Part shown: in pieces, positions 320-14,000 of the stretch
How positions within the stretch are numbered: position 1 is the stretch's first letter
How the letters are laid out: each line of letters opens with the position of its first letter
DNA from: Candidatus Galloscillospira stercoripullorum
Lineage (GTDB): Bacteria > Bacillota > Clostridia > Oscillospirales > Oscillospiraceae
DNA: 48,526 nt
Assembly: GCA_018715695.1 (NCBI GenBank)
Contig: DVLB01000121.1
Span: 1-48,526, forward strand
Direction: 5' to 3'
Position numbers and translations under genes: made by a program
Notes under the pieces: model-generated
The model's database searches: none
What the model was told of the DNA's origin: nothing
Seen by the model: only the letters and a program-made list of their open reading frames with translations

Positions 320-358
320 TTCCCCCAAAATAAAGCAATATTTGTGGAGGACAGCAAT

Positions 359-817
359 ATGTATCGAGAACTGATTGGGGATTTAGCAAAAGAAAACAAC
401 TGGGTAAAAATACAGCCACCATGTCCTGTTGAAGAAATTAGGCGTGCGGAACAGGTTGCAGGTTATCCTTTTCCCAAGGAGCTGCGCGAATTGCTTCAAG
501 AAGCAAATGGCGATCATTATTGTCTATTGTCCGCGCAAGAAATAATAGAAAATGTGGAACGAAACCGGAAAATTTTATTTCCTCTTTTTGAAGAGGATTA
601 CAGCAAAGAAAAATATATCGAATTGGTAGATAGATTTATTTTCTTTGCAACCAATGGTTGCGGAGATTATTATTGCTACCGTGTCACTGAAGACGGTATT
701 CCCGATGAAACCGCTATTTACATTTGGGAGCATGAATCTCTAGGCGAGAAATGCTGGAAAAAGGTTGCCGGAAACATGGGGGAATTTATTAGTAGGTATT
801 ACAAAGGCGAGATTTAA
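359..817 (+). CDS. SMI1/KNR4 (SUKH) family protein, likely immunity protein
   Basis: A 152-residue protein. The start is set at ATG 359 because GGAGG (346-350) sits eight bases upstream; a GTG at 344 is too close to that site. The N-terminal half has the SUKH pattern: a helix with E-x-x-x-A-E, then G-x-x-FP-x-ELRELL and a NG turn at about residue 50. The C-terminal part has aromatic-rich strands (NGCGDYYCYR) followed by IWEHES. Family knowledge: bacterial SUKH proteins are mostly cytoplasmic immunity proteins against polymorphic or contact-dependent toxins, though some are housekeeping. No toxin gene is adjacent, so the partner is unknown. Codon use is visibly AT-rich (AAA, GAA, AAT, TTA) against the GC-rich neighbours, which suggests recent transfer. 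Confidence 0.8.
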   Translation: MYRELIGDLAKENNWVKIQPPCPVEEIRRAEQVAGYPFPKELRELLQEANGDHYCLLSAQEIIENVERNRKILFPLFEEDYSKEKYIELVDRFIFFATNGCGDYYCYRVTEDGIPDETAIYIWEHESLGEKCWKKVAGNMGEFISRYYKGEI

Positions 818-1062: not shown

Positions 1063-3285
1063 ATGAAAATGTGCAAAAGAGGTCTGGCGGCACTGGTTTT
1101 ATGCCTGTGCCTGCTGACTGCTCTGGCTGCGGGAGCGTCGGCCATGGCCCCGGTGGATTCCGCAGCAAACAGCGCCACCCATCTGCGCACCTCCTACAAC
1201 GACAGCAACTATCTTGACCTGAGCATCTCCGGCAGCACTCTGACGGTGAGCGGCAGGCTCCTGGTGGACGGTCTCCAGCAGATTCAGGTCCAGGTGGGCA
1301 GTGTCTCCCGGACCGTGAATGCCGCAGACGGCCAGCTGTTTTCCACGCAGCTGACCATGACCCACAGCGGCTCGGCGGCGGTGCGGATCTACACCAAAAC
1401 CACCGGTACCAGCTTTACCAGTTTGACCTGGCGCAGCATCTACATCCAGAAGGGCTCCGGCGGATATGCGTTTCTGGAGTCCCGGGTGCTGAAGGGCAAC
1501 CTGGCCTTTACCGCCAGCTACCTGGACCCCCAGGATGCCTTCCGCATCCAGGTCCCCGATTCCGTAGCCGCCAAGTCCCAGGAGATCGTGGGAGACGAGA
1601 CTGACGACTATACCAAGGTGTTTCTGCTCAACCAGTGGGTGGCAGAAAACATCTACTACGATTACGACGCGCTGAACGGTCTGTCTGAGCGGATCACCGA
1701 TTCCGCCGGCGTACTGGAGTACAGGCGCAGCGTCTGCGAGGGATATGCCAAGCTGCTGCGGGATCTGATTTTGGCCCAGGGGATTCCCGCCATTTACAGC
1801 CTCAACGACGCCGTCAACAGCAGCTCCTATGCCCTGACCACCTCCGGCGGCGAGAGTCATGCCCATACGGAGGCCTATGTGGACGGGCGGTGGATCGTCA
1901 TGGACGCCACCTGGGACTCCAACAACAAATACCAAAACAGGGTCTATTCCTCTCAAGCGCCCAACGGCTTTTTCTACTTTGACATCACACCTGAGGTCTT
2001 CGCCCTGGACCACAAGATCACCGCCCGGGACACCAAGGACTATGTGGCCACCACCGAAGGCTTCGGCTATTCTCCCGACGGACTGAGCATCGTCGCCTAC
2101 GACGGACCCGGCGGCGCGGTGGTGATCCCGGACGGCGTCACAGCCATTGCCGACTACGCCTTCCTGGGCAACGGGGACATCACCAGCCTGACGGTGCCCG
2201 AGAGCGTCCGCTCCATCGGCCGTTCCGCCTTTGAGGGGTGCTACAGCCTGCTCTCCGTCACCCTGCCCGACAGTCTGACCTCCATCGGCAAGAGCGCCTT
2301 TTCCCGGTGCCGCAATCTCTCCAACCTGCGCCTGCCGGGGGGCAACGTGACCATCGGGGACGACGCCTTCTTCGGCTCCGCCATCACCGAGCTGACCATC
2401 ACCAGCGGCATGAAGCTGGGCGAGAGCGTATTCTGCGACTGCGAGGAGCTGCTCCGCGTCGTCCTGGAGCCCGGCGTCACCACCATCCCCTACGACACCT
2501 TCAACAACTGCTGGAGCATCACCTTCCTGGAGATCCCCGCCACCGTGACCACCATCGCCACGCGGGCCTTCGTCACCTGCAACGGCCTGGAAGATGTGTA
2601 CTTCGGCGGCACGCAGAGCCAGTGGGAATCCATTGCCATCGGGGAGCGCAACGACGTCCTGTCCAAGGCCACAATCCACTTTAACAGCGCCATGCCCGAG
2701 GAGGTGCCCGAGGTGGAGCCTGAGGAGGAGCCCGAGGACACCGGCCCCGTCATGAGTAAATGGGCCCAGGCCTCTGTGGAGCGCGCCGTTGCCAGCGGCT
2801 TCGTCCCCGACGGCATCTTTGGCAACGACTATACCGAGAGCATCACCCGCGCACAGTTTGCGGCGCTGGCCGTCAAGACCTATGAGACCCTCCACCGCGG
2901 CGCCGTGCCGTACAAAATGGTTGACTTTGCCGACTGCTCCGGCAACGTGGCCGTCGTCAAGGCCTACAATCTGGGCCTGCTCCAGGGGTATAACACCGCC
3001 CCCACCTACAGCGAGATCTACATCGGGCCTGACGATCCCATCACCCGTGAGCAGGCTGCCACTATGGTGGTCCGTCTGATCGAGTATCTGGGCCCTGCCA
3101 TGCCCACCGCCGACGAGCTGCCCTTTACCGACTCCTTCGCCAGCTGGGCCGAAGAGAGCGTTTCCAAGGTCTACAAGGCCGGCATCATGACCGGCACCAG
3201 CGCCACCGTCTTCTCGGCCAAGTCCGACTACACCATTGAGCAGTCCATTGTGACCATGATCCGCGTTGCGGACTACCTGGACTGA
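1063..3285 (+). CDS. Secreted transglutaminase-like / LRR_5 / SLH surface protein
   Basis: A 740-residue surface protein. It has a signal peptide at about residues 1-27 (charged MKMCKR, hydrophobic core, A-x-A end). A transglutaminase-like (papain-fold) domain spans about 150-330, with candidate catalytic Cys225 (SVCEGYAK), His266 (HAHTEAYVDG) and Asp281 (MDATWD), so the triad appears intact. Next come six or seven BspA/LRR_5-type repeats at about 356-530 (I-P-x-x-V-T-x-I-x-x-x-A-F pattern), an acidic Glu/Pro linker, and two to three SLH repeats at about 564-740 for binding the secondary cell-wall polymer. The start has an AAAGGAG site just upstream. Family knowledge: such proteins are exported and may act in adhesion or peptide/protein modification. 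The substrate is unknown. It is convergent with the giant adhesin and shares its terminator. Confidence 0.85.
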   Translation: MKMCKRGLAALVLCLCLLTALAAGASAMAPVDSAANSATHLRTSYNDSNYLDLSISGSTLTVSGRLLVDGLQQIQVQVGSVSRTVNAADGQLFSTQLTMTHSGSAAVRIYTKTTGTSFTSLTWRSIYIQKGSGGYAFLESRVLKGNLAFTASYLDPQDAFRIQVPDSVAAKSQEIVGDETDDYTKVFLLNQWVAENIYYDYDALNGLSERITDSAGVLEYRRSVCEGYAKLLRDLILAQGIPAIYSLNDAVNSSSYALTTSGGESHAHTEAYVDGRWIVMDATWDSNNKYQNRVYSSQAPNGFFYFDITPEVFALDHKITARDTKDYVATTEGFGYSPDGLSIVAYDGPGGAVVIPDGVTAIADYAFLGNGDITSLTVPESVRSIGRSAFEGCYSLLSVTLPDSLTSIGKSAFSRCRNLSNLRLPGGNVTIGDDAFFGSAITELTITSGMKLGESVFCDCEELLRVVLEPGVTTIPYDTFNNCWSITFLEIPATVTTIATRAFVTCNGLEDVYFGGTQSQWESIAIGERNDVLSKATIHFNSAMPEEVPEVEPEEEPEDTGPVMSKWAQASVERAVASGFVPDGIFGNDYTESITRAQFAALAVKTYETLHRGAVPYKMVDFADCSGNVAVVKAYNLGLLQGYNTAPTYSEIYIGPDDPITREQAATMVVRLIEYLGPAMPTADELPFTDSFASWAEESVSKVYKAGIMTGTSATVFSAKSDYTIEQSIVTMIRVADYLD

Positions 3286-3293
3286 CCACGCAA

Positions 3294-3341
3294 ACACAGC
3301 GGAGCCCCCGTGGAATCACTTCCACGGGGGCTCTGCTGTGT
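3294..3341. terminator. Long bidirectional hairpin between two convergent surface genes
   Basis: GAGCCCCCGTGGAA (3302-3315) pairs perfectly with 3320-3333 around TCAC. After one mismatch the stem continues with ACACAGC (3294-3300)/GCTGTGT (3335-3341). It has no classic T-run, but its position between convergent stop codons supports a terminator role on both strands. Confidence 0.7.
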
Positions 3342-3349
3342 GCCTGTGT

Positions 3350-6300
3350 TTACAGGCCCATGCTGCGGCAAAAACGCATGAGCATGGTGGCCACCTGGGC
3401 TCTCGTGGCCGCCGCTCTGGGTGTGAGGGCTTCGGCACTGACGCCCGTCACCAGACCCTCGGCGTTGGCCCAGCTCATGGCACTCTGGGCCCAGGCGCTG
3501 ATCTCAGAGGCGTCCTCATATCCGGAGAGATCGCTTCGGGCGCTGACATCCCAGCCCTTATACTGTGCATAACGGTAGAAGAGCACCGCCATCTGCTGCC
3601 GGGTGATGGGGTCACCGGGGGCAAACACCGCGTCGCTGTACCCTTCCACGATGCCCTCGCTGGCAGCCCAGCGCACCGCCTCGGTATACCACAGGCCCTG
3701 CCCCACATCCGCAAAGCTCATCAGGTAATTCACCTGAGGCCTGCCCTCCAGGTACCAGAGGGTGGTGACCAGCATGGCCCGGGTGGCTGTGGCGGAAGGC
3801 GCAAAGGCATCCGCACTGACGCCGTTCATCAGTCCCCGCTCCGCGCAGTAGTGTATCCCGTCGTGATACCAAGCTGTGAGATCCAGGTCCTCAAACCGGG
3901 CAGCCGGGCAGTCTGCGCCCAGGCCGCAGCCCTCAGGGCCGCCGGAGAAGAGGGCCCGGACGGTGACGGCGCTCTCCGGCATAGTGAAGGAGTACTTTCC
4001 GCCACCCAGGTCCCTGACTTCCACGGCAGCGCCGCTGCCGTCGGTGACGGTGAGGCGGAGGAGGCTCTCCCCGGCGGCGGGGGTGACGGTCAGGCTGACG
4101 GTGGAGTTGACGTAGGCCCAGTCGCGTCCGGCGCTTACGCTGCCACTGCCAATGTTCTCCACGCTGATGGCATAGCGCGACACCTCAATGACGGTTCCGC
4201 CCCCCTCTCCTTCTTCAGGGGAGCGCTCAGTCCAGTGGGCATACAAGGTGGTGTCCCGGGTGAAGCTGGTGCCGGTGGTGACGTATGTACCGCCCTCGCG
4301 CTCGGTGTACCAGCCGTCAAAGTCCATGGTGTCGTGTACCGGCTCGCCCAGATAGCTGAGCCGCCCGTTGTAGGTGAACTGGCTCACAACGTCATAGACG
4401 CCACCGTTGGGATCGAAGGTGATGAGGAACTCCCCGTAGTCGGCGGGATTTACGGTGATAGCCGCCGTCCGGCTCTTGATCTCCAGCGTCTCGCCGCCGC
4501 TCTCCACCGTGACCACGCAGTAGTAGTAGAAGCTGCCCTGGGTATGGGTGGGCGGGACAAAGCTGCTCCCCGACGAGATCATCACATCGCCGCTGTATAT
4601 TTCCTCATACCACCGATAGGTAACGGTATAGTCCTCGGGGGCAGTGACCGCCACCGTGAGGGGCTGGGCCGTCTCCCCCACGCGGTATGCCGCGTCCTGG
4701 GGCTGGACTGTGATCACCGGAGCCTCCAGGGCCTTCACGGTGATCTCCGCTCGGGCGGAGGTGGTGGAGGCGGTCTTGTTCACCGTGGCGTACTGGTTGG
4801 TGTTGGTGGCCACGCAGTAGTAGTAGAGGGTTCCGGGCGTGGTGGTAGGCGGGGTAAAGGTGCTCTGGGTGGCGCCGGGGATGGCCGTGCCGCCGCTGGT
4901 GGCGTCGCCGCTCACATACCACTGGTAGGAGATCACGCCGCCGTCATCGGTAAAGGCGCTGAAGAGGAGCGGCTCGGCCTGGGCCCCGGTGCCGTACTGG
5001 GCACTGTCCAGCCTGGCGTTTCCGACAGAGGGCGGCGCGGCATTCTCCACGCCGGTGGGGGCCGACACGGTCACACGGACCACGTCGCTGCGGACGCTGG
5101 CGGTCTGGCTGCCGGGGGCGTTGCGGTTGGTGTTGGTCACCACGCAATAGTAGTAGAAGGTGCCCGTCTGGGTGAGCAGTCCGGCAAACCAGCTCTCGGT
5201 CTCCCCCGCCACAGCCACACCGCCGGAGCCGTCGGCATTGCAGCGGTACCACTGGTAGGACAGCTCGCCGCCGTCTACAGGGTCCTCCACCTGCAGATTC
5301 AGCGCAGGCGTATAGTTGACCATGCAGTTGTCGTCATCGTCTGGCTGCTGCAGGATCACAGGGGTGGCCGCATCCGCGCCCCACCGGGCGTAGATGGTGC
5401 AGGCGTTTTCAAAGCTGTGGTCATCCTTAACCTGTTCTCCGCCCTCCCGCTCGGTGTACCAGCCGGTGAAGGTGTGGTCCTCCCAGGCGGGCGTGGGCAG
5501 GGTCCCGATCAGCCGGAACTCACCATAGCTCAGCCTCAGGGGCAGGGTATCGGGGTCCACCGTGCCGCCCTGGGGGTCCAGGGTGATGTAGGCGGTGCCC
5601 ACATAGACCGGAATGGCCGGGGTCTTGGCCGAGACGACCTGGTTGCCGGTGATATTGGGTGCCATGTTGGTGTTGGTCACCACACAGTAGTAGTAGCGGA
5701 TGCCCTCCTGGGCGGTATCCGGGTAGTAATTACCGCTCCGGGTCTCTGCCAGGAACGTCCCGTTCTCGTTGTCAGCGCCGCTGCTCTCATACCACTGGTA
5801 GGAGAGGGTTCCGCCGTCGCCCACCGAGGCGTCGACATAGAGCCATGCCCGCTCTCCCACTGCCGCGCTGACGCCCGTGGGGTAGCCGGTGATGGTGGGG
5901 GTATCGGCGTTCACCACCTCGCCGGTCTGGTCATAGTGGGCGTAGATGGTCTGCTCGGCCTGCCGGAACACGGTCTGGGTGGTGACCCGCTCGCCGCCCT
6001 CCTCCGCTGTGTACCAACCGGTGAAGGTGTGGCCGCCCTTTTCTGCCGCGCAGGAACCCAGGTCTGGCAGTCTTCCGTTGAGGGTTGTGGTGACGACACC
6101 GCCCGAGCCATTGGTCATCACCCCCGGATAGACGGGGTCCAGGGTGACCCGGCACTCCTGCTCCAGTACCTCGATGTTCACCGCTTCCGTATCTGCAGAG
6201 GCGGTCTTGATACCCGCCAGGGTGGACAGGGTGTTGGTCACCCGGCAGAAGTAGTTCCACACCCCCGCCGTGTCGGTGGACGGGGTGTACTCGCTGAGGG

Positions 6301-7780
6301 TGGCGTCGGAGATGAGCTGCGCCTGCGCCTGGTCGCTTTCATAGCGGTACCACTGATAGGAGAGGGCGCCGCCGTCGGTTACCGAGGCGGTGACGTAGAG
6401 GGTGTTGGCGGCGTTGCCCTTGGCGTAGACATACCCGCTCTCCGCCAGCATCGTGGCAGTGGGCGTCTCCGCGGTGAAGTCCTTGTCCTCGGCCACCCAC
6501 ACCTCCACCTGGGCGCCTGCGGCCGTCACGGCCTGCCCGGCGGCGTCCACGGCACTCTCCAGGGAGACGGCCACGTCATACTTCCCCGGCTGCGCGTTCT
6601 CGTCCACATAGTACCACAGGGTGATGACGGTCTCCTCCGAGGTGATGTCCTGCTGCGCGGTGTTGTTCACCACCAGCCGGAAGGGGTCGGCACCCCAGTC
6701 GTCATGGAGGGTGAAGCCCTCCTTGGGGAAAACGCTGCCCACGGAGTAGCCCACCAGGTGGAAGGGGGCGCCGTCAGGATAGTCCAGCTGGGCCAAAAAT
6801 CCCCAAAGGCCGGTGTTATTCTCCAGACGGAGACTCAGGCCAAAGGTCTTGCCCGCCATGGTCTTCACGTCGTCAGCGGTGAAGGTCAGCTCCTCCGTGC
6901 CGCCCAGGAGCATGGGGGCAGCGGCGTTCATGGGGGTTGCGGAGAGCAGGGCGGAGGCGGTGCTGCGGCCGAAGAAGTCCTCTCCCAGCAGCAGTCCGCC
7001 GGCGTAGGGGGTGGTAGCGCCGTAGTAGTTGGAGCCATCGGAAAACTCCAGCCGGACCCGTATCTCGGTGCTCTCGCCGTAATTGGGGTTGCGGTCCGGC
7101 ATCTGACTCACGTCCACACTGATGTTGCACAGGAAGGGGTTACCGCTGATCCACTCCCCATCGTAGATAGGCATGGTGACGGTGGTGTAATCGCCAAAGG
7201 TGAAGTCGTCCCGGAGATACTGCAAGCGGATGGTGACCTTATTGTCGTTGCTGCCGAAGGCGTAGCGATCGAAGTTGTCCGGCAGGTAGACGGCGATGTC
7301 GGTCTTGCCCACGGTGAGATCGGGCTGGGCAAGGGAGCTACCGCCGCTAACGGGGAAGGGCGCCTTTTCTATGACGATAAAGCTGTCCAGGAAGAGGTCC
7401 AGGGGCTTATAATTCTCGTTGCCCGGCCAGATGAGGCGCACGTTGTAGGCCCCCGCATCCTGGGGCCAGCCGGCGGCAGTGGAGTAGATGGGCACCTCTG
7501 TCCACTCCACCGAGGTGGCCACTCCCTGCTTGCGCCAGAGCACCTGGCAGTGCTGGTAGAACATGCCCGCGGCATAGAGTTCGCTGTCATTGAGACGCGT
7601 CATGAAGTCCACGGCGCCCCCACTCTGTGGGTGAGTACACTCCGTTGTAGGGGGTAAAGTCAGCCGCGGTGAGGCCGATGTCCAGCTTCTCCGAGACATA
7701 GGGGTAGAGGTAGAGGTCCCCATCGCTGCGGATGATGGTCTCGGCAGTATAGGCCTCGCCGGTGAAGGCGGGGTTATCAT
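3350..7780 (-). CDS. Giant SLH adhesin, C-terminal part (beyond frameshift)
   Basis: The open frame begins at 7780, but its first 50-odd residues are an out-of-frame reading of the upstream gene. Meaningful sequence starts at about 7616 (GAVDFMTRLNDSE). In order it holds: a beta-rich segment; a cohesin-like domain at about 6870-6480 (LSLRLENNTGLWGF..LDYP); five Ig-like modules, each with a SYQWY or TYRWY core and most with YYYCVVTNT (about 6470-6160, 5915-5600, 5375-5070, 5065-4740, 4735-4450); three InlB/Listeria-Bacteroides-type repeats ending FTGWYTxxEGGE (about 6165-5925, 5598-5380, 4440-4210); a further bacterial repeat; and three SLH domains (about 3900-3355). It lacks a signal peptide and a convincing ribosome binding site, so it is probably not made alone. 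It continues the gene at 7587-12263 after a one-base shift in the five-C run at 7617-7621. Confidence 0.75.
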   Translation of the reverse strand: MITPPSPARPILPRPSSAAMGTSTSTPMSRRSWTSASPRLTLPPTTECTHPQSGGAVDFMTRLNDSELYAAGMFYQHCQVLWRKQGVATSVEWTEVPIYSTAAGWPQDAGAYNVRLIWPGNENYKPLDLFLDSFIVIEKAPFPVSGGSSLAQPDLTVGKTDIAVYLPDNFDRYAFGSNDNKVTIRLQYLRDDFTFGDYTTVTMPIYDGEWISGNPFLCNISVDVSQMPDRNPNYGESTEIRVRLEFSDGSNYYGATTPYAGGLLLGEDFFGRSTASALLSATPMNAAAPMLLGGTEELTFTADDVKTMAGKTFGLSLRLENNTGLWGFLAQLDYPDGAPFHLVGYSVGSVFPKEGFTLHDDWGADPFRLVVNNTAQQDITSEETVITLWYYVDENAQPGKYDVAVSLESAVDAAGQAVTAAGAQVEVWVAEDKDFTAETPTATMLAESGYVYAKGNAANTLYVTASVTDGGALSYQWYRYESDQAQAQLISDATLSEYTPSTDTAGVWNYFCRVTNTLSTLAGIKTASADTEAVNIEVLEQECRVTLDPVYPGVMTNGSGGVVTTTLNGRLPDLGSCAAEKGGHTFTGWYTAEEGGERVTTQTVFRQAEQTIYAHYDQTGEVVNADTPTITGYPTGVSAAVGERAWLYVDASVGDGGTLSYQWYESSGADNENGTFLAETRSGNYYPDTAQEGIRYYYCVVTNTNMAPNITGNQVVSAKTPAIPVYVGTAYITLDPQGGTVDPDTLPLRLSYGEFRLIGTLPTPAWEDHTFTGWYTEREGGEQVKDDHSFENACTIYARWGADAATPVILQQPDDDDNCMVNYTPALNLQVEDPVDGGELSYQWYRCNADGSGGVAVAGETESWFAGLLTQTGTFYYYCVVTNTNRNAPGSQTASVRSDVVRVTVSAPTGVENAAPPSVGNARLDSAQYGTGAQAEPLLFSAFTDDGGVISYQWYVSGDATSGGTAIPGATQSTFTPPTTTPGTLYYYCVATNTNQYATVNKTASTTSARAEITVKALEAPVITVQPQDAAYRVGETAQPLTVAVTAPEDYTVTYRWYEEIYSGDVMISSGSSFVPPTHTQGSFYYYCVVTVESGGETLEIKSRTAAITVNPADYGEFLITFDPNGGVYDVVSQFTYNGRLSYLGEPVHDTMDFDGWYTEREGGTYVTTGTSFTRDTTLYAHWTERSPEEGEGGGTVIEVSRYAISVENIGSGSVSAGRDWAYVNSTVSLTVTPAAGESLLRLTVTDGSGAAVEVRDLGGGKYSFTMPESAVTVRALFSGGPEGCGLGADCPAARFEDLDLTAWYHDGIHYCAERGLMNGVSADAFAPSATATRAMLVTTLWYLEGRPQVNYLMSFADVGQGLWYTEAVRWAASEGIVEGYSDAVFAPGDPITRQQMAVLFYRYAQYKGWDVSARSDLSGYEDASEISAWAQSAMSWANAEGLVTGVSAEALTPRAAATRAQVATMLMRFCRSMGL

Positions 7781-10700
7781 ACCAGCCCACCAGCCGCTGG
7801 GTGGTGGTCATACCCAGCTCAGGCAGCGCGCCCAGGGCGCTGCCGTTGGGGACCTGGCGCAGCTCCAGCTCGGTGGTGGCGTTTTGCATGATGTGCACGT
7901 CCACCATGGTGGAGATGTACTTGGCGTAGAGGGTCATGGCCTCTCCGGGCATCCGCTCAGCGCCGAAGTCGAAGGGCTGGGTGCACTCGGGGTCTTTATA
8001 CCAGCCGTCCAGGTAGGCCCCCGCCAGAGTGGGCAGGGTGGGGGCGAAGACGATGGAGCCCTGGGGGTAGGCCACCGGGTCGATGGTGGGCATATCTTCC
8101 TCGGTCTGGTCCTCAGAGGGGGTAACCACAAAGCTGAGATCATAGGTGGGGGTATCCGTGCTCAGGGGAATGCAGGACACCGTGTAGGTGACCGAGCTGT
8201 CCGAGGGGGCCACCACCGGGCTGATGCCGTTGACCTTTACCGTCCCGCCCTTGACGTACTCTGCCAGGTGGGCATTGATGCCGCTGGTGTCCGGGGTCTC
8301 CCCGGCGCGGAAGGTGACGGAATAGTCGGGCACGCTCACGCCCAGGAAGGTGAAGGTGGCGGTACGGGCGGCGTCGGTGTAGTTGGCCGTGAGCGTGGCG
8401 CTGGTACCGTACTGCTCCAGGAAGCTCATGTCCACCTGGGTGTCCAGGGGGAAGGTATCGGCGCTCTCCCCCACCGTCAGGTTCTGGAAGACGGTGTAGG
8501 TGCCGCTCTGCGCATCGTCCGCACCGGTGTCTGCGAGGGAGGCGAGCTGGGCGAAGGGCTCCCCGTAGATGGTGGTGTAAACCGCGCCGGTGAGGCTGCC
8601 GTCCGCTTTCTGGATGCCCTCCACCGTCAGGCTGTATTCTCTCAGGGGGAGGTCATAGTAGTAGGTGGTATCCTCCTGGAGGGTGATGCCGGTGGTCTCG
8701 GAGACGGTGTAGCCGCCGGTGCCAGAATACTTGAGATTGGTACCGTCCTCGGCGGTGTAGGAGTCGTAGCCAACGAGCTCCAGGATCTCCTCCTGGGTGG
8801 GCAGGTCAACGGTCTGGGTGCGGTTGAACTGACCGCTCCACACGACCTGGTAGCCGTAGGTGGCGTTGCCCACCGCCACATAGGCGTTATAGAGCTTGCT
8901 GATCTCGCTCTGGCTGTAACTGGTCCACACCACCGGCACGGTGATGGACATGTCGTACTGGCTGAAGGGCAGCTTCTCCTTGGACCAGGTGATGATCATG
9001 TCTCCCTGGACGTAGCGAACCCCCTCCGCAAGGCTCCCCTTGTCGAAGCTGATGATCCCCTTATCGTCGATGGAGAAGGCGGGATTTGTGAAGCGGATGT
9101 GGTAATTGGAGATATCGTAGATGCCCTGGGCCCGCTGCCCGGTGGTCATGTCGATGGTCTTCATGTTCCGGTAGGCCTCGGGCAATTCCATTGTAACGCC
9201 GTTTGTCTCGTTCTGGTCCTCGTCCAGGATGTAGAGCAGGTCGGTGGGTCCGGGGTCCAGGGCGAAGTCGTAGATATTCTTCTTCTGCCCTGCCGTGATC
9301 AGTGAAAATTCCCCGTCATAGAGGGTTGGCTCATACTTGATGAGATCCTTGAGAGCCTGGGCCTTGAACTTGACGGTCAGGTAGATGCCAAAGTCCAGGT
9401 ACAGCGCTCCCAGCGTCTGTTCCTCCACATCCCACGCAGTTGTGTTTGCCGGCCGGAACTTGGTATAGGTATAGACGAAGTAGCCGTAGAGCTTGATATA
9501 GGGGCCCACCTCCAGGTTGGCGCCCACGCTGGCGATGGAGGTGCTGATGATGCCCACGGCCACGTCGATCTTGAAGCCGAAGCGAGCACCGATGTAGCCC
9601 ATGATGTAGAACTGGAAGCCGAAGCGCTCGTCCAGCAGGTCGGTCTCGCTGCTGCCCGACTTGCCCGCGAAGATCTTCACCCAGAAGCTGTACCGCTTGC
9701 CCATCTCATACTCCAGGTCCATGCCCATGGTGAGGTTCACGTCCACGGACACGATGAAGTTGACGCTGAGCTTGACGGCCAGGATTTTGATGTGGTACTC
9801 CTTGGAGAACATCTCATGGTTGAGAACCTGGGCCCAACCGCTCTCGTCGTCGAAAAGGGCGGAGTACTTGCTCATGAGCACTTCCAGGCCCGTTCTGCTC
9901 TCCTCCTCACTCTGGGCAGAGAGGACCTCCTCAAACTCGCTGCTCACGTCGGTCATGTTAAGCTCCGCTTCCAGCTGCTCAAAGGAGTACTCCTGGCCGC
10001 CCACGTTGACCTTGGGAAGGCTTCCCAGGATGCTGTCGATCTGATCCTGGACATCCTTGCCGCCGCCCAGCTTGCGCTGGAGGCGCAGCTGGTTGAGTTC
10101 CCGCAGGGCGTCGGTGTACTCCCCGTCCCGGATGAGGTTGATGAGCTCATTGTAGGACTCCTTCTTCTCTCGGGAGACGGTGTAGGTCTTGGCACTCAGG
10201 GAGATGTTGGAGTAGCTCTTCACGTCCACGGCTACCGAGAAGTTCACTTCCTTGAGCACGGGGATGATGACGTAGACATCCCAGTCGGTGCTGGCGTCCA
10301 CGCTCAGGCCGAAGGCCCCCTGCTGCTCAAAGTAGGCGCTCAGCTCGATTTTCAGCTCGTTTACGGTGGCTGTGGTGCCGCTGCCCACTTTTCTACTCAC
10401 GGTGAATCCAGCGCTCACCTGCACGCTCATGCCGTAGCCATCTTCATAGCGGTCGTTCACATGGACCCCCGGCGTGACGCTGGCTCCGTCGAAGGTGTAC
10501 TTGGTCCTCCCTCCCCCCAGGCCAGTCCGGGCGGCCATGGGCGAGGCAGCCAGGGCGCTGATCTCGGCGCTGCTCAGGCCCATATCCATGAGCTGGGCCT
10601 GGATGGTGGGGGTCTGGAAGGCCGCCGAGGCCATCATGGCCACCGCCTCGTCGGCGAAATCGCTCTCGGCCAGGTCGGCGGCCAGGGCGTTTTGCAGGGC

Positions 10701-12263
10701 GGTGGTGTCCAGGTCGTCCACACTGATGGGGGTGCTGACGAAGAGCCCGCCGGTGAGGTCCTCGATGTCGTCCTTGTCGATAATCTCATAGGCTACGGTG
10801 GTGCCGGTGAGGCCGGTCACCTTGGCGTAGACGGCGGAGCTATCTGCGTTGAGGGCAGCGAAGTCCTCTGCGTAGAACACCAGCAGGTCGCCGGTCTTGA
10901 ATGCCGGGGCCTCCGTCAGGCCCAGGGCCGCCCTGGCGGCGTGGTCGTAGCCGTTGGCGTCCACAGTGCCCGTGGTCCCCTTGCCCCCCGCGGGCAAGGT
11001 CTCCACCCGATAGGGGATGGTGTCGGGCAGGAGAACCACCTCGTCCAGGTCCTCCTCCCCCAGGGACTCGAAGTAGTAGAAGGAGGGGGTGGTATAGCCG
11101 CCCTCGATGCCGCCTAGCTCTATATCGGTGATGCGGATGTAAGCGATGGCGTCGTCCTCATAGAGGTCCTGGGTGTAGTCCCGATTTCTGGGGTCCACCG
11201 TCTCGTAGACGCACACCACGTCCCCCACCTGGAGGTCCAGGTTGCTGAGCGGGCTATCAAAGTCGATGGTGGAGATGCGGCCGGTGGTGATCTCCGTCTC
11301 ACCGCTGGCGTAAATGGGGATCTCCAGCACCTCCAGGCTCTGGCCGTAGGGGTTGGAGTCCGTGGGGTTCAGGTAGTAGTGGTAGGTGTCGATATGCTGA
11401 AGGAAGATGACGTCGTCGCTGAACTGGATGGTATCCTCCTCCTGCTTGGTGAAGGTAAGGGCAACTGTGCGATAGTAGTCCTCGTAGAGGGAGCCGTCCT
11501 CCTTGGCGAAGGTAAGGCCGTCACCGATGGTGAGCTCATAGGTGCCCCCCGGCCGGAAGCCGCCATCCGCTTTGACGCCGAAGAGGTTGCCGCCCTGGGC
11601 GGTGACGATGAGCTCTACCGGGTCGGAGCCGTCCTTGGTGAGCAGGGTGAGGGCAGCCTTGACCTGCTCGGCCGTCATACCCGGGGCACTCACGCGCAGC
11701 TCCAAAGCCGGGTCCTGCTCCGTCAGGGCGAAGGAGTCGATGTAGAGCTGCTCGGTGGGATCGATGGCCTGATAGGTGGCGGTGAGAGTCAGGTTGCTCA
11801 TCACCGGCTCGCTCTGGTAGAAGGGCTGGCCGTCAGCCATCTGCCAGCCGGTGAAGATATAGCCCTCCTTGGCGGGGGCAGGGATCTCCTGGGTGATGGC
11901 GTAGCCCTTCCCTACCTGGATGGGGTCGATGGTTCCCCCTCCGTCTGTCTCAAAGGTGACGGTCCAGAACTGGTCCGTCAGGTGGATATTGCCGGCCAGG
12001 TACTCCCGGATAAGGTCGGCGTCGGTCTCATCCACGGTGCTGTCGCCGTTCACGTCGGCATTGGCTGTATCGATGGAAGTGACCGTGCTGGGGTCAGCGA
12101 TGTACGCCTCGATCAGGTACACGTCCCCCATGTTCACATAGCCGTCCCCATCGGCGTCGCCCAGCAGGCTGCCGCCCAGGGCCATAGCCCGGAGGCTGGC
12201 GGCGGGCAGCAGCGAGAGCGCCATGCCCACCAGGAGCAGAAGGCTCATCAGTCGTTTTTTCAT
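7587..12263 (-). CDS. Giant adhesin/scaffold protein, N-terminal part (frameshift-truncated)
   Basis: A 1558-residue reading with a strong GGGAGG site before the ATG at 12263. It has a signal peptide at about residues 1-27. A dockerin-type pair of calcium-loop repeats follows at about 35-92 (DADGDGYVNMGD and DVNGDSTVDETD), then an InlB-like repeat at about 100-166. A long uncharacterised beta-rich region runs to about residue 1100. Two more InlB-like repeats lie near 1430-1545 (YLDGWYKDPEC, LVGWYDNPAF). The last residues (WGRRGLHDASQ) do not fit the pattern. Removing one base from the G5 run (C5 on the + strand, 7617-7621) joins TEWG to AVDFMTRL in the downstream frame, giving about 2970 aa ending in SLH domains. 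As written, the product would be secreted without its anchor. The cause could be a real mutation, phase variation or a sequencing error. Confidence 0.8.
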   Translation of the reverse strand: MKKRLMSLLLLVGMALSLLPAASLRAMALGGSLLGDADGDGYVNMGDVYLIEAYIADPSTVTSIDTANADVNGDSTVDETDADLIREYLAGNIHLTDQFWTVTFETDGGGTIDPIQVGKGYAITQEIPAPAKEGYIFTGWQMADGQPFYQSEPVMSNLTLTATYQAIDPTEQLYIDSFALTEQDPALELRVSAPGMTAEQVKAALTLLTKDGSDPVELIVTAQGGNLFGVKADGGFRPGGTYELTIGDGLTFAKEDGSLYEDYYRTVALTFTKQEEDTIQFSDDVIFLQHIDTYHYYLNPTDSNPYGQSLEVLEIPIYASGETEITTGRISTIDFDSPLSNLDLQVGDVVCVYETVDPRNRDYTQDLYEDDAIAYIRITDIELGGIEGGYTTPSFYYFESLGEEDLDEVVLLPDTIPYRVETLPAGGKGTTGTVDANGYDHAARAALGLTEAPAFKTGDLLVFYAEDFAALNADSSAVYAKVTGLTGTTVAYEIIDKDDIEDLTGGLFVSTPISVDDLDTTALQNALAADLAESDFADEAVAMMASAAFQTPTIQAQLMDMGLSSAEISALAASPMAARTGLGGGRTKYTFDGASVTPGVHVNDRYEDGYGMSVQVSAGFTVSRKVGSGTTATVNELKIELSAYFEQQGAFGLSVDASTDWDVYVIIPVLKEVNFSVAVDVKSYSNISLSAKTYTVSREKKESYNELINLIRDGEYTDALRELNQLRLQRKLGGGKDVQDQIDSILGSLPKVNVGGQEYSFEQLEAELNMTDVSSEFEEVLSAQSEEESRTGLEVLMSKYSALFDDESGWAQVLNHEMFSKEYHIKILAVKLSVNFIVSVDVNLTMGMDLEYEMGKRYSFWVKIFAGKSGSSETDLLDERFGFQFYIMGYIGARFGFKIDVAVGIISTSIASVGANLEVGPYIKLYGYFVYTYTKFRPANTTAWDVEEQTLGALYLDFGIYLTVKFKAQALKDLIKYEPTLYDGEFSLITAGQKKNIYDFALDPGPTDLLYILDEDQNETNGVTMELPEAYRNMKTIDMTTGQRAQGIYDISNYHIRFTNPAFSIDDKGIISFDKGSLAEGVRYVQGDMIITWSKEKLPFSQYDMSITVPVVWTSYSQSEISKLYNAYVAVGNATYGYQVVWSGQFNRTQTVDLPTQEEILELVGYDSYTAEDGTNLKYSGTGGYTVSETTGITLQEDTTYYYDLPLREYSLTVEGIQKADGSLTGAVYTTIYGEPFAQLASLADTGADDAQSGTYTVFQNLTVGESADTFPLDTQVDMSFLEQYGTSATLTANYTDAARTATFTFLGVSVPDYSVTFRAGETPDTSGINAHLAEYVKGGTVKVNGISPVVAPSDSSVTYTVSCIPLSTDTPTYDLSFVVTPSEDQTEEDMPTIDPVAYPQGSIVFAPTLPTLAGAYLDGWYKDPECTQPFDFGAERMPGEAMTLYAKYISTMVDVHIMQNATTELELRQVPNGSALGALPELGMTTTQRLVGWYDNPAFTGEAYTAETIIRSDGDLYLYPYVSEKLDIGLTAADFTPYNGVYSPTEWGRRGLHDASQ

Positions 12264-12782: not shown

Positions 12783-13964
12783 TCATCGGAGCATATACTG
12801 CTTGAGATCCTTTCTCTGGCGTATATTCAATTTTTGCAGGGTATTGGAGATGTACTGCTTGACCGTGTTGGGGGAGATACCCATATGGTCGGCGATCTCC
12901 TGATTGGTCCAGCCCCGGGCTGCCAGCATGGCAGTGGCAAACTCTGTGGTGGTAAGATTGTCGGCCACGTCGTGGCCGGTGACCGGATTGTGGACCTTGC
13001 GCCAGCCAGCGGAAAAGCGGTATGTAATAGCAATGATGCGCTTGAAATCCTCTGGATAGTCTTTTTTCAGCACCGCCTCCAGCATACCGCCCACCAGTCC
13101 GTGGTGTTCGCCGAAGCCCTCGATCAGATCGTCCGGCTGGGCCAGGTGCCACGCCTTGCGCAGATGTTCCTCGGCCTTATCCGGCTGCTTGAGGCTCATG
13201 TAGTCCATAACGGCGGCCAGGTGCATGTAGAGGAGGGGGATGGGGTAGACTTCCGTCTCCATGGCGAAAGCGGTCTCCAGGATGCCAATGCTCTTTCCGT
13301 AATCCCCCTGGATGTAGGTGTAATGGGCCTGGACATATAGGGCGAACAGCCGGAGTCCCGGCGGCAGGAGTTTGATGCTTTTGTAGAACTCGTCACTCCC
13401 GTGGGGCAGGGGCAGGTGCAACAGCACCGCCGCCGCCGTAACGGTAAACAGGGCGGCCGCGCGCAGCTCCGGCGGGGTATCCGCGTTCACATCGGTGAGC
13501 ATGCTGCGCACCTCAGTCAGCGCATATCGGGCTTTTTGGATCATACCCGTGGACAGGTTGGCGTAGGCATAAAGAAGGCAGGCGGAGAGCCGCAGCTGCG
13601 GGTCCGGAGCGGACAGGTACAGCTCGGCCAGCCGGGCCGCCTCCTCGGGCTGCCCGCTGAAATAGAAATACTCGCTGCGGGCGATGTCCCGGATGTGGGA
13701 ATCAGCGATCCCTTCGATATACTCCAGGCACCGCCCCGGCGGGAAGGGCGAGTTGAGCAGTGGCATCAGCGCCGGACACGGGCCGGCGCTCTCTCCTCTC
13801 TCAGGAGAGGTTTCGTCAGAGGAACTCTCCTGTACGTCGGGGATAGCCCATGCGCCACCGAATTTCCTGGCTCCCGGAACCAGTCCGGCGGCACAGCGCT
13901 GCCGGATCAGCTTCTCGGAGCTGTTCCATCTCCGGGCCGCCTCCCGTACTGTTATGTATTCCAT
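12783..13964 (-). CDS. LuxR-type regulator with extra N-terminal HTH and TPR-like core
   Basis: About 393 residues, with an in-frame ATG six codons earlier at 13982. I chose ATG 13964 because GGAGG lies 11 bases upstream and the mapped promoter then gives a normal leader; 13982 has only a weak AGGA. The N-terminus (EYITVREAARRWNSSEKLIR, then GARKFGGAWAIP) resembles an excisionase/MerR-like helix-turn-helix. The middle (about 80-320) is alpha-helical and TPR-like. The C-terminus is a LuxR/GerE helix-turn-helix (ARGWTNQEIADHMGISPNTV, then LQKLNIRQRKDL). Family knowledge: the LuxR domain binds DNA as a dimer and TPR-like cores take protein or peptide signals. Two DNA-binding ends in one protein is uncommon. 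Targets are unknown; the adhesin unit beside it is a candidate. Confidence 0.8.
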   Translation of the reverse strand: MEYITVREAARRWNSSEKLIRQRCAAGLVPGARKFGGAWAIPDVQESSSDETSPERGESAGPCPALMPLLNSPFPPGRCLEYIEGIADSHIRDIARSEYFYFSGQPEEAARLAELYLSAPDPQLRLSACLLYAYANLSTGMIQKARYALTEVRSMLTDVNADTPPELRAAALFTVTAAAVLLHLPLPHGSDEFYKSIKLLPPGLRLFALYVQAHYTYIQGDYGKSIGILETAFAMETEVYPIPLLYMHLAAVMDYMSLKQPDKAEEHLRKAWHLAQPDDLIEGFGEHHGLVGGMLEAVLKKDYPEDFKRIIAITYRFSAGWRKVHNPVTGHDVADNLTTTEFATAMLAARGWTNQEIADHMGISPNTVKQYISNTLQKLNIRQRKDLKQYMLR

Positions 13965-14000
13965 CTCCGCGTCTGCCTCCATCCCGGTCCTATTTTATTC

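Follow-up and report, generated by a model that had tools for sequence, protein, structure and literature searches.

The window analyzed here, a stretch of 48,526 nucleotides (contig DVLB01000121.1) from Candidatus Galloscillospira stercoripullorum, carries on its minus strand a gene for a giant surface protein, which extends from position 12263 to position 3350 and is spread, as assembled, over two open reading frames in different frames (Table 1). ORF1, with a Shine-Dalgarno-like GGGAGGG just 5′ of its ATG, ends early, past a frameshift, at a stop at 7587, and the frame of ORF2 is already open from 7807. In the assembled DNA, the dockerin lies on one side of the frameshift and the cohesin and the S-layer homology (SLH) repeats lie on the other.

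Table 1. Features of the giant surface-protein gene and of the regulator gene upstream of it (positions in the window).
Feature	Positions	Strand	Content or basis
LuxR-type (GerE) regulator gene	12783..13982	-	PF00196, E 5.5e-13; upstream of the giant gene, same strand
ORF1	7587..12263	-	1558 aa; signal peptide, dockerin, InlB repeat, large conserved body, two InlB-type repeats
Type I dockerin	11988..12164 (Pfam 11997-12164)	-	PF00404; two intact calcium loops, recognition positions MG / ET
InlB B-repeat / Flg_new module	11778..11963	-	PF09479, residues 101-162
Large body domain, fold not recognized	8874..10556	-	also present in giant proteins of the taxonomic family that are anchored by N-terminal SLH
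Frame change from ORF1 to ORF2	7590..7640 (approximate)	-	within MBG-like domain
ORF2 open frame	3350..7807	-	1485 codons; cohesin, five Ig-like modules and InlB repeats, divergent InlB repeat, three SLH repeats
Divergent type I-like cohesin (predicted)	6485..6904 (best boundaries, approximate)	-	profiles and predicted fold
Five Ig-like modules (SYQWY/TYRWY motifs) among InlB/Flg_new repeats	4480..6480 (approximate)	-	motifs and Pfam
Three S-layer homology repeats	3389..3898	-	PF00395, E 3.1e-29; cell-wall anchor, C-terminal

Does this arrangement reflect one gene or two? The equivalent region of a relative (L019) is read through without a break, so that ORF1 and ORF2 are likely to derive from what was once a single protein, nearly 3,000 residues long. 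Two adjacent intact genes, as found in relatives with neighboring dockerin and cohesin-SLH genes, are disfavored, because the head of ORF2 has no start codon with a signal peptide and because the MBG-like domain, which comes after an InlB repeat, spans the junction of the two frames as it does in L019, as judged by eye. One broken gene is thus preferred, although it is unproven. The preliminary description of this DNA, made from the sequence alone, had assigned all modules to one predicted polypeptide. The unbroken relative suggests one ancestral chain, but in the assembly the dockerin is cut off by the frameshift from the cohesin and the SLH repeats, and the break could be either an assembly error or real. 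The cohesin and the SLH repeats both belong to ORF2 and are not parted by the frameshift; this is the pairing by which SLH-anchoring scaffoldins are recognized (PMC11557425).

The remaining modules correspond to what had been described before: five SYQWY/TYRWY motifs mark the five Ig-like modules, InlB/Flg_new repeats form three stretches in each of the two frames, and the C-terminus carries an SLH anchor of three repeats. The large body of ORF1 (residues 570-1130) gave a single-sequence AlphaFold model of low confidence (pLDDT 34.5). A third long open frame of 1463 codons, antisense to ORF2 (3266-7657, plus strand), can probably be put down to high G+C content.

The dockerin and the cohesin

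The building of enzyme complexes is what cohesins and dockerins are chiefly known for. The dockerin of ORF1 is readily recognized: PF00404 (Dockerin_1) matches residues 34-89, in agreement with the calcium-loop pair placed earlier at residues 35-92, with an E-value of 1.7e-11 in a Pfam scan of the ORF and 1.8e-13 in a genome-scale search, its score of 44.6 bits exceeds the curated Pfam cut-off of 22.9, and dockerins of the PDB match it with E-values from 2e-9. Both F-hand calcium loops, DADGDGYVNMGD and DVNGDSTVDETD, are complete, with ligands at positions 1, 3, 5, 9 and 12. The recognition positions are unlike between the two repeats (MG versus ET), and a dual binding mode is therefore unlikely for this dockerin.

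The cohesin is much less apparent. Pfam cohesin PF00963 gives no direct match to the segment even at E<=10, which reflects a detection convention rather than a biological requirement, and all cohesins taken together gave an alignment too divergent for use as a search query. When the single segment was compared by hhalign with 25 related cohesins, from which the window was excluded, a probability of 97.6% and an E-value of 2.7e-12 were obtained. The same 25-cohesin profile at genome scale found the segment with an E-value of 1.7e-14 and no further cohesin in the genome, and a lineage cohesin HMM built without the segment gave 3.8e-10, compared with 0.024 for the best of 200 shuffled sequences. 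The closest matches of the segment, with a best E-value of 1.1e-5, are cohesins from the same taxonomic family; those that were scanned exceed the Pfam cohesin cut-off themselves. An AlphaFold2 model, produced from an alignment with 16 relatives, each of which matches Pfam Cohesin, has a pLDDT of 87.4. Its top rows in Foldseek and VIA-align are all cohesins, with type I uppermost, including a Z-score of 18 to the type I cohesin CaCohA2; 6kgc_A is superimposed with a Z-score of 18.0 and an rmsd of 1.7 Å over 135 aligned residues. Since the aligned relatives could have pulled the model to their own fold, the profile tests (lineage HMM, hhalign and genome profile) should be regarded as the independent ones.

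The segment near 6870-6480, which the preliminary description had called cohesin-like and had proposed to compare with cohesins by profile or structure prediction, is on the evidence of independent profiles, hhalign and fold comparison a real, though divergent, cohesin with a predicted jelly-roll fold. A generic Ig domain is ruled out by the lack of any match to an Ig family and by the cohesin profile and fold matches. Dockerin, cohesin fold and SLH anchor are each shown, from the sequence or from a predicted structure. Viral contigs yielded no cohesin relatives.

Do these two modules still dock? The dockerin might have become a calcium-stabilized cap and the cohesin a further β-sandwich spacer. 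The divergence of the cohesin, which has no Pfam match and is placed among Ig-like spacers, and the mismatch of the dockerin repeats, which makes dual-mode binding unlikely, would fit such a loss, as would the 31 of 87 dockerin-bearing genomes of the family that have no Pfam cohesin. However, both calcium loops and the entire predicted cohesin fold have been retained, and seven of the 29 family dockerins compared likewise share neither recognition position between their repeats, so that a loss of docking seems improbable.

Relatives and known systems

Among 200 genomes of the family, a dockerin is found in 87 and a cohesin in 63: 56 genomes have both, 31 a dockerin only, seven a cohesin only and 106 neither, which corresponds to an odds ratio of 27 (p 2e-19, not corrected for relatedness). 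The profile detects a cohesin in 133 of the 394 genomes of an order-wide sample. The cohesin of L091, in the related genome G012, is an exact match to a named Oscillospiraceae MAG from goat rumen, on which the taxonomic label rests. Many members of the family possess more than one gene for dockerin and cohesin proteins, frequently in clusters. Chains that carry a cohesin together with a dockerin are common in the group, with 41 such ORFs among the regions read, which also include 14 ORFs with cohesin and SLH (ORF2 of the window among them) and three with dockerin, cohesin and SLH (L111, L119 and L134); these counts are not frequencies, as the regions were picked for cohesin or dockerin matches. 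Because Pfam can miss divergent cohesins, the spread of cohesin-dockerin systems is probably underestimated.

In L111 (5836-14454) and L119 (2390-12193), a single ORF for an S8 peptidase unites dockerin, cohesin and SLH. In L139 (5112-13851), a small anchor gene encoding a cohesin and three SLH repeats is followed directly by a separate gene encoding an S8 peptidase with a dockerin. The same two modules, separate in adjacent genes in one case and fused in the others, suggest that cohesin-SLH and dockerin modules of this type work as a functional pair. L111 (G194) and L119 (G163), which belong to the same family, share with the window protein, if this is one chain, the order of dockerin, cohesin and C-terminal SLH, but have a subtilase body and an internal dockerin, at residues 973-1021 and 886-937, respectively.

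Other arrangements were noticed in the regions read. Gene clusters in L091, L095, L105, L107, L175 and others encode successive proteins with a cohesin beside a C-terminal dockerin, which could form a daisy chain. In L121-L125 and L127-L132, dockerin proteins of about 1,650 aa adjoin a secreted SLH protein of 400-500 aa with an N-terminal β-rich domain. L121, the only one of these dockerin proteins scanned, is an M60 peptidase, and the M60-type protein and its SLH neighbor look like a pair of dockerin enzyme and anchor. A by-eye likeness of the N-terminal domain of these anchors to a cohesin found no support, as the profile probability is 0.8% and there is no PDB match.

The body of ORF1 has relatives of another kind. 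It is common to giant proteins in nine of 150 family genomes, the window's own included; in L024 (G061), the identity is 28% over about 1,450 columns. L024 and the related giants differ from the window protein in having an N-terminal SLH anchor, neither dockerin nor cohesin being detected in them, and those scanned with intact N-termini all have SLH and no dockerin there. As the giant relatives carry SLH at the N-terminus, the dockerin appears to stand where their anchor is, and anchoring of the window protein would be at the opposite end. A pattern search of the named genomes with whole ORF1 found no relative. Within the genus there is a single further genome, 70% complete, in which neither a homologue nor a dockerin or cohesin was found. 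A 26%-identical relative of the body occurs in L192 (MT836193.1), filed as 'Bacteriophage sp.' and flagged UNVERIFIED; it has no detectable dockerin, cohesin or SLH, its neighbors are by eye subtilase-like and TrpB-like proteins, and the DNA looks bacterial rather than phage.

The combination of dockerin, cohesin and SLH is uncommon but not unprecedented. ScaK of Acetivibrio cellulolyticus, the arrangement of which its authors termed the first of its kind, combines two dockerins, one of them N-terminal, with two cohesins and SLH (Dassa et al., 2012; PMC3413522). It resembles the window protein, if the latter is one chain, in having an N-terminal dockerin, cohesin and an SLH anchor. ScaK, with its paired dockerins and cohesins, is part of a large cellulosome system (PMC3413522), whereas the window protein has one of each on an adhesin-like body, with no cellulosome found. 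In Amy4 of Ruminococcus bromii, dockerin and cohesin are on one chain, and self-aggregation was proposed by the authors (PMC5814915). The window protein would resemble this Amy4/Sca1 amylosome enzyme in having both modules together, again if it is a single chain. Amy4, by contrast, is an amylase for which no SLH is described, with Sca2 to Sca5 as known scaffoldin partners and with several of the interactions measured (PMC5814915). ScaF and ScaJ of C. clariflavum have a single cohesin and three SLH repeats, like the window protein, but are described as consisting of cohesin and anchoring module only, without a dockerin (PMC4582956). Scaffoldins of the ScaO type unite peptidase, cohesin and dockerin (PMC6780208). 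The part of a classification available to us distinguishes eight scaffoldin classes, including SLH-anchoring and monovalent-adaptor ones, and names none that is both (PMC11557425). In gut bacteria, cohesin-dockerin systems outside cellulose breakdown are established, for example the Limousia mucinolysome (PMC12997984). What is new here is a ScaK-like set of modules on a non-enzymatic, adhesin-like giant body in a lineage in which no cellulosome is evident, together with the presence of SLH in the closest body relatives at the position that the dockerin occupies in the window protein.

A putative linker of surface proteins

The host assembly comprises 1.88 Mb in 121 contigs and is 74% complete. 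It contains a single dockerin by PF00404, that of the window, and no cohesin by Pfam; the sensitive lineage profile finds one cohesin, again that of the window. SLH matches number 33. The genome-wide search for other dockerin and cohesin proteins that the preliminary description had envisaged thus yielded no second copy of either module in the part assembled. GH9 was not found in the 74%-complete genome, with control genomes positive, and neither was GH48, for which no control genome was positive either; dockerin-bearing cellulases (e.g., GH9, GH48), the mark of a cellulosome, were accordingly not found in this assembly, which holds no other dockerin. The earlier remark that the species is not evidently cellulolytic fits these results.

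With which partner would the dockerin interact? We favor, with a probability of roughly 0.4, an SLH-anchored, non-enzymatic, adhesin-like surface protein that links through its predicted cohesin and dockerin, preferably to a copy of itself. The C-terminal SLH repeats would tether the chain to the cell wall. Within the C-terminal half, the cohesin would be a socket displayed at the cell surface, and the plug would be the calcium-loaded dockerin, located some 1,800 residues from it at the extreme N-terminus. Provided that the modules share one chain and that the dockerin does engage a cohesin, neighboring surface proteins could be joined in a calcium-dependent manner, the partner presumably being a like molecule. 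Docking between copies is favored because the search of the genome brought up no further cohesin or dockerin, and this uniqueness, together with the precedent of Amy4, makes putative self-chaining or self-assembly plausible, closely followed by partners encoded in the missing quarter of the genome. Co-occurrence of the two modules in the family, the fusions in L111, L119 and L134 and the precedents of ScaK and Amy4 are also consistent with linking. Against it count the frame break between the modules, an assembly that may miss partners and a cohesin too divergent for Pfam.

The second of these possibilities, in which the protein would be an ordinary anchor or adaptor, the cohesin holding other dockerin proteins and the dockerin plugging into another cohesin protein, gains from the fragmentation and incompleteness of the assembly, from the several, often clustered, dockerin and cohesin genes of many family members and from the small cohesin-SLH anchors that adjoin dockerin enzymes, as in L139. 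The assembled 1.88 Mb, however, has no second dockerin or cohesin even by the lineage-specific cohesin profile, which leaves this reading somewhat doubtful. Alternatively, the molecule might be closed into a loop by docking of its dockerin on the cohesin of its own chain. Each module is present only once, and the long repetitive spacer regions would allow closure, but the large body lies in the long interval between the modules, and such a loop is very improbable.

If linking between copies is pursued to its end, homotypic docking might build a calcium-dependent chain or lattice without scaffoldin or enzyme, serving as a surface coat or in cell linking; this extension is putative and on balance unlikely. 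A giant adhesin with one cohesin, one dockerin and a wall anchor would nevertheless offer a compact test case for the question of whether the pair can act as a glue of surface proteins.

The surroundings of the gene deserve mention. The GerE-type regulator encoded upstream possibly controls the giant gene. A different gene, LuxR-like by eye, likewise lies 5′ of a related giant SLH gene in L025 (9308-11827, minus strand). The convergent neighbor (1063-3285, plus strand) encodes another surface protein, with BspA-type LRR, a transglutaminase core and SLH. Farther on, at 344-817 (plus strand), a protein of the SUKH/SMI1-KNR4 family is encoded; such proteins are often immunity proteins of toxin systems.
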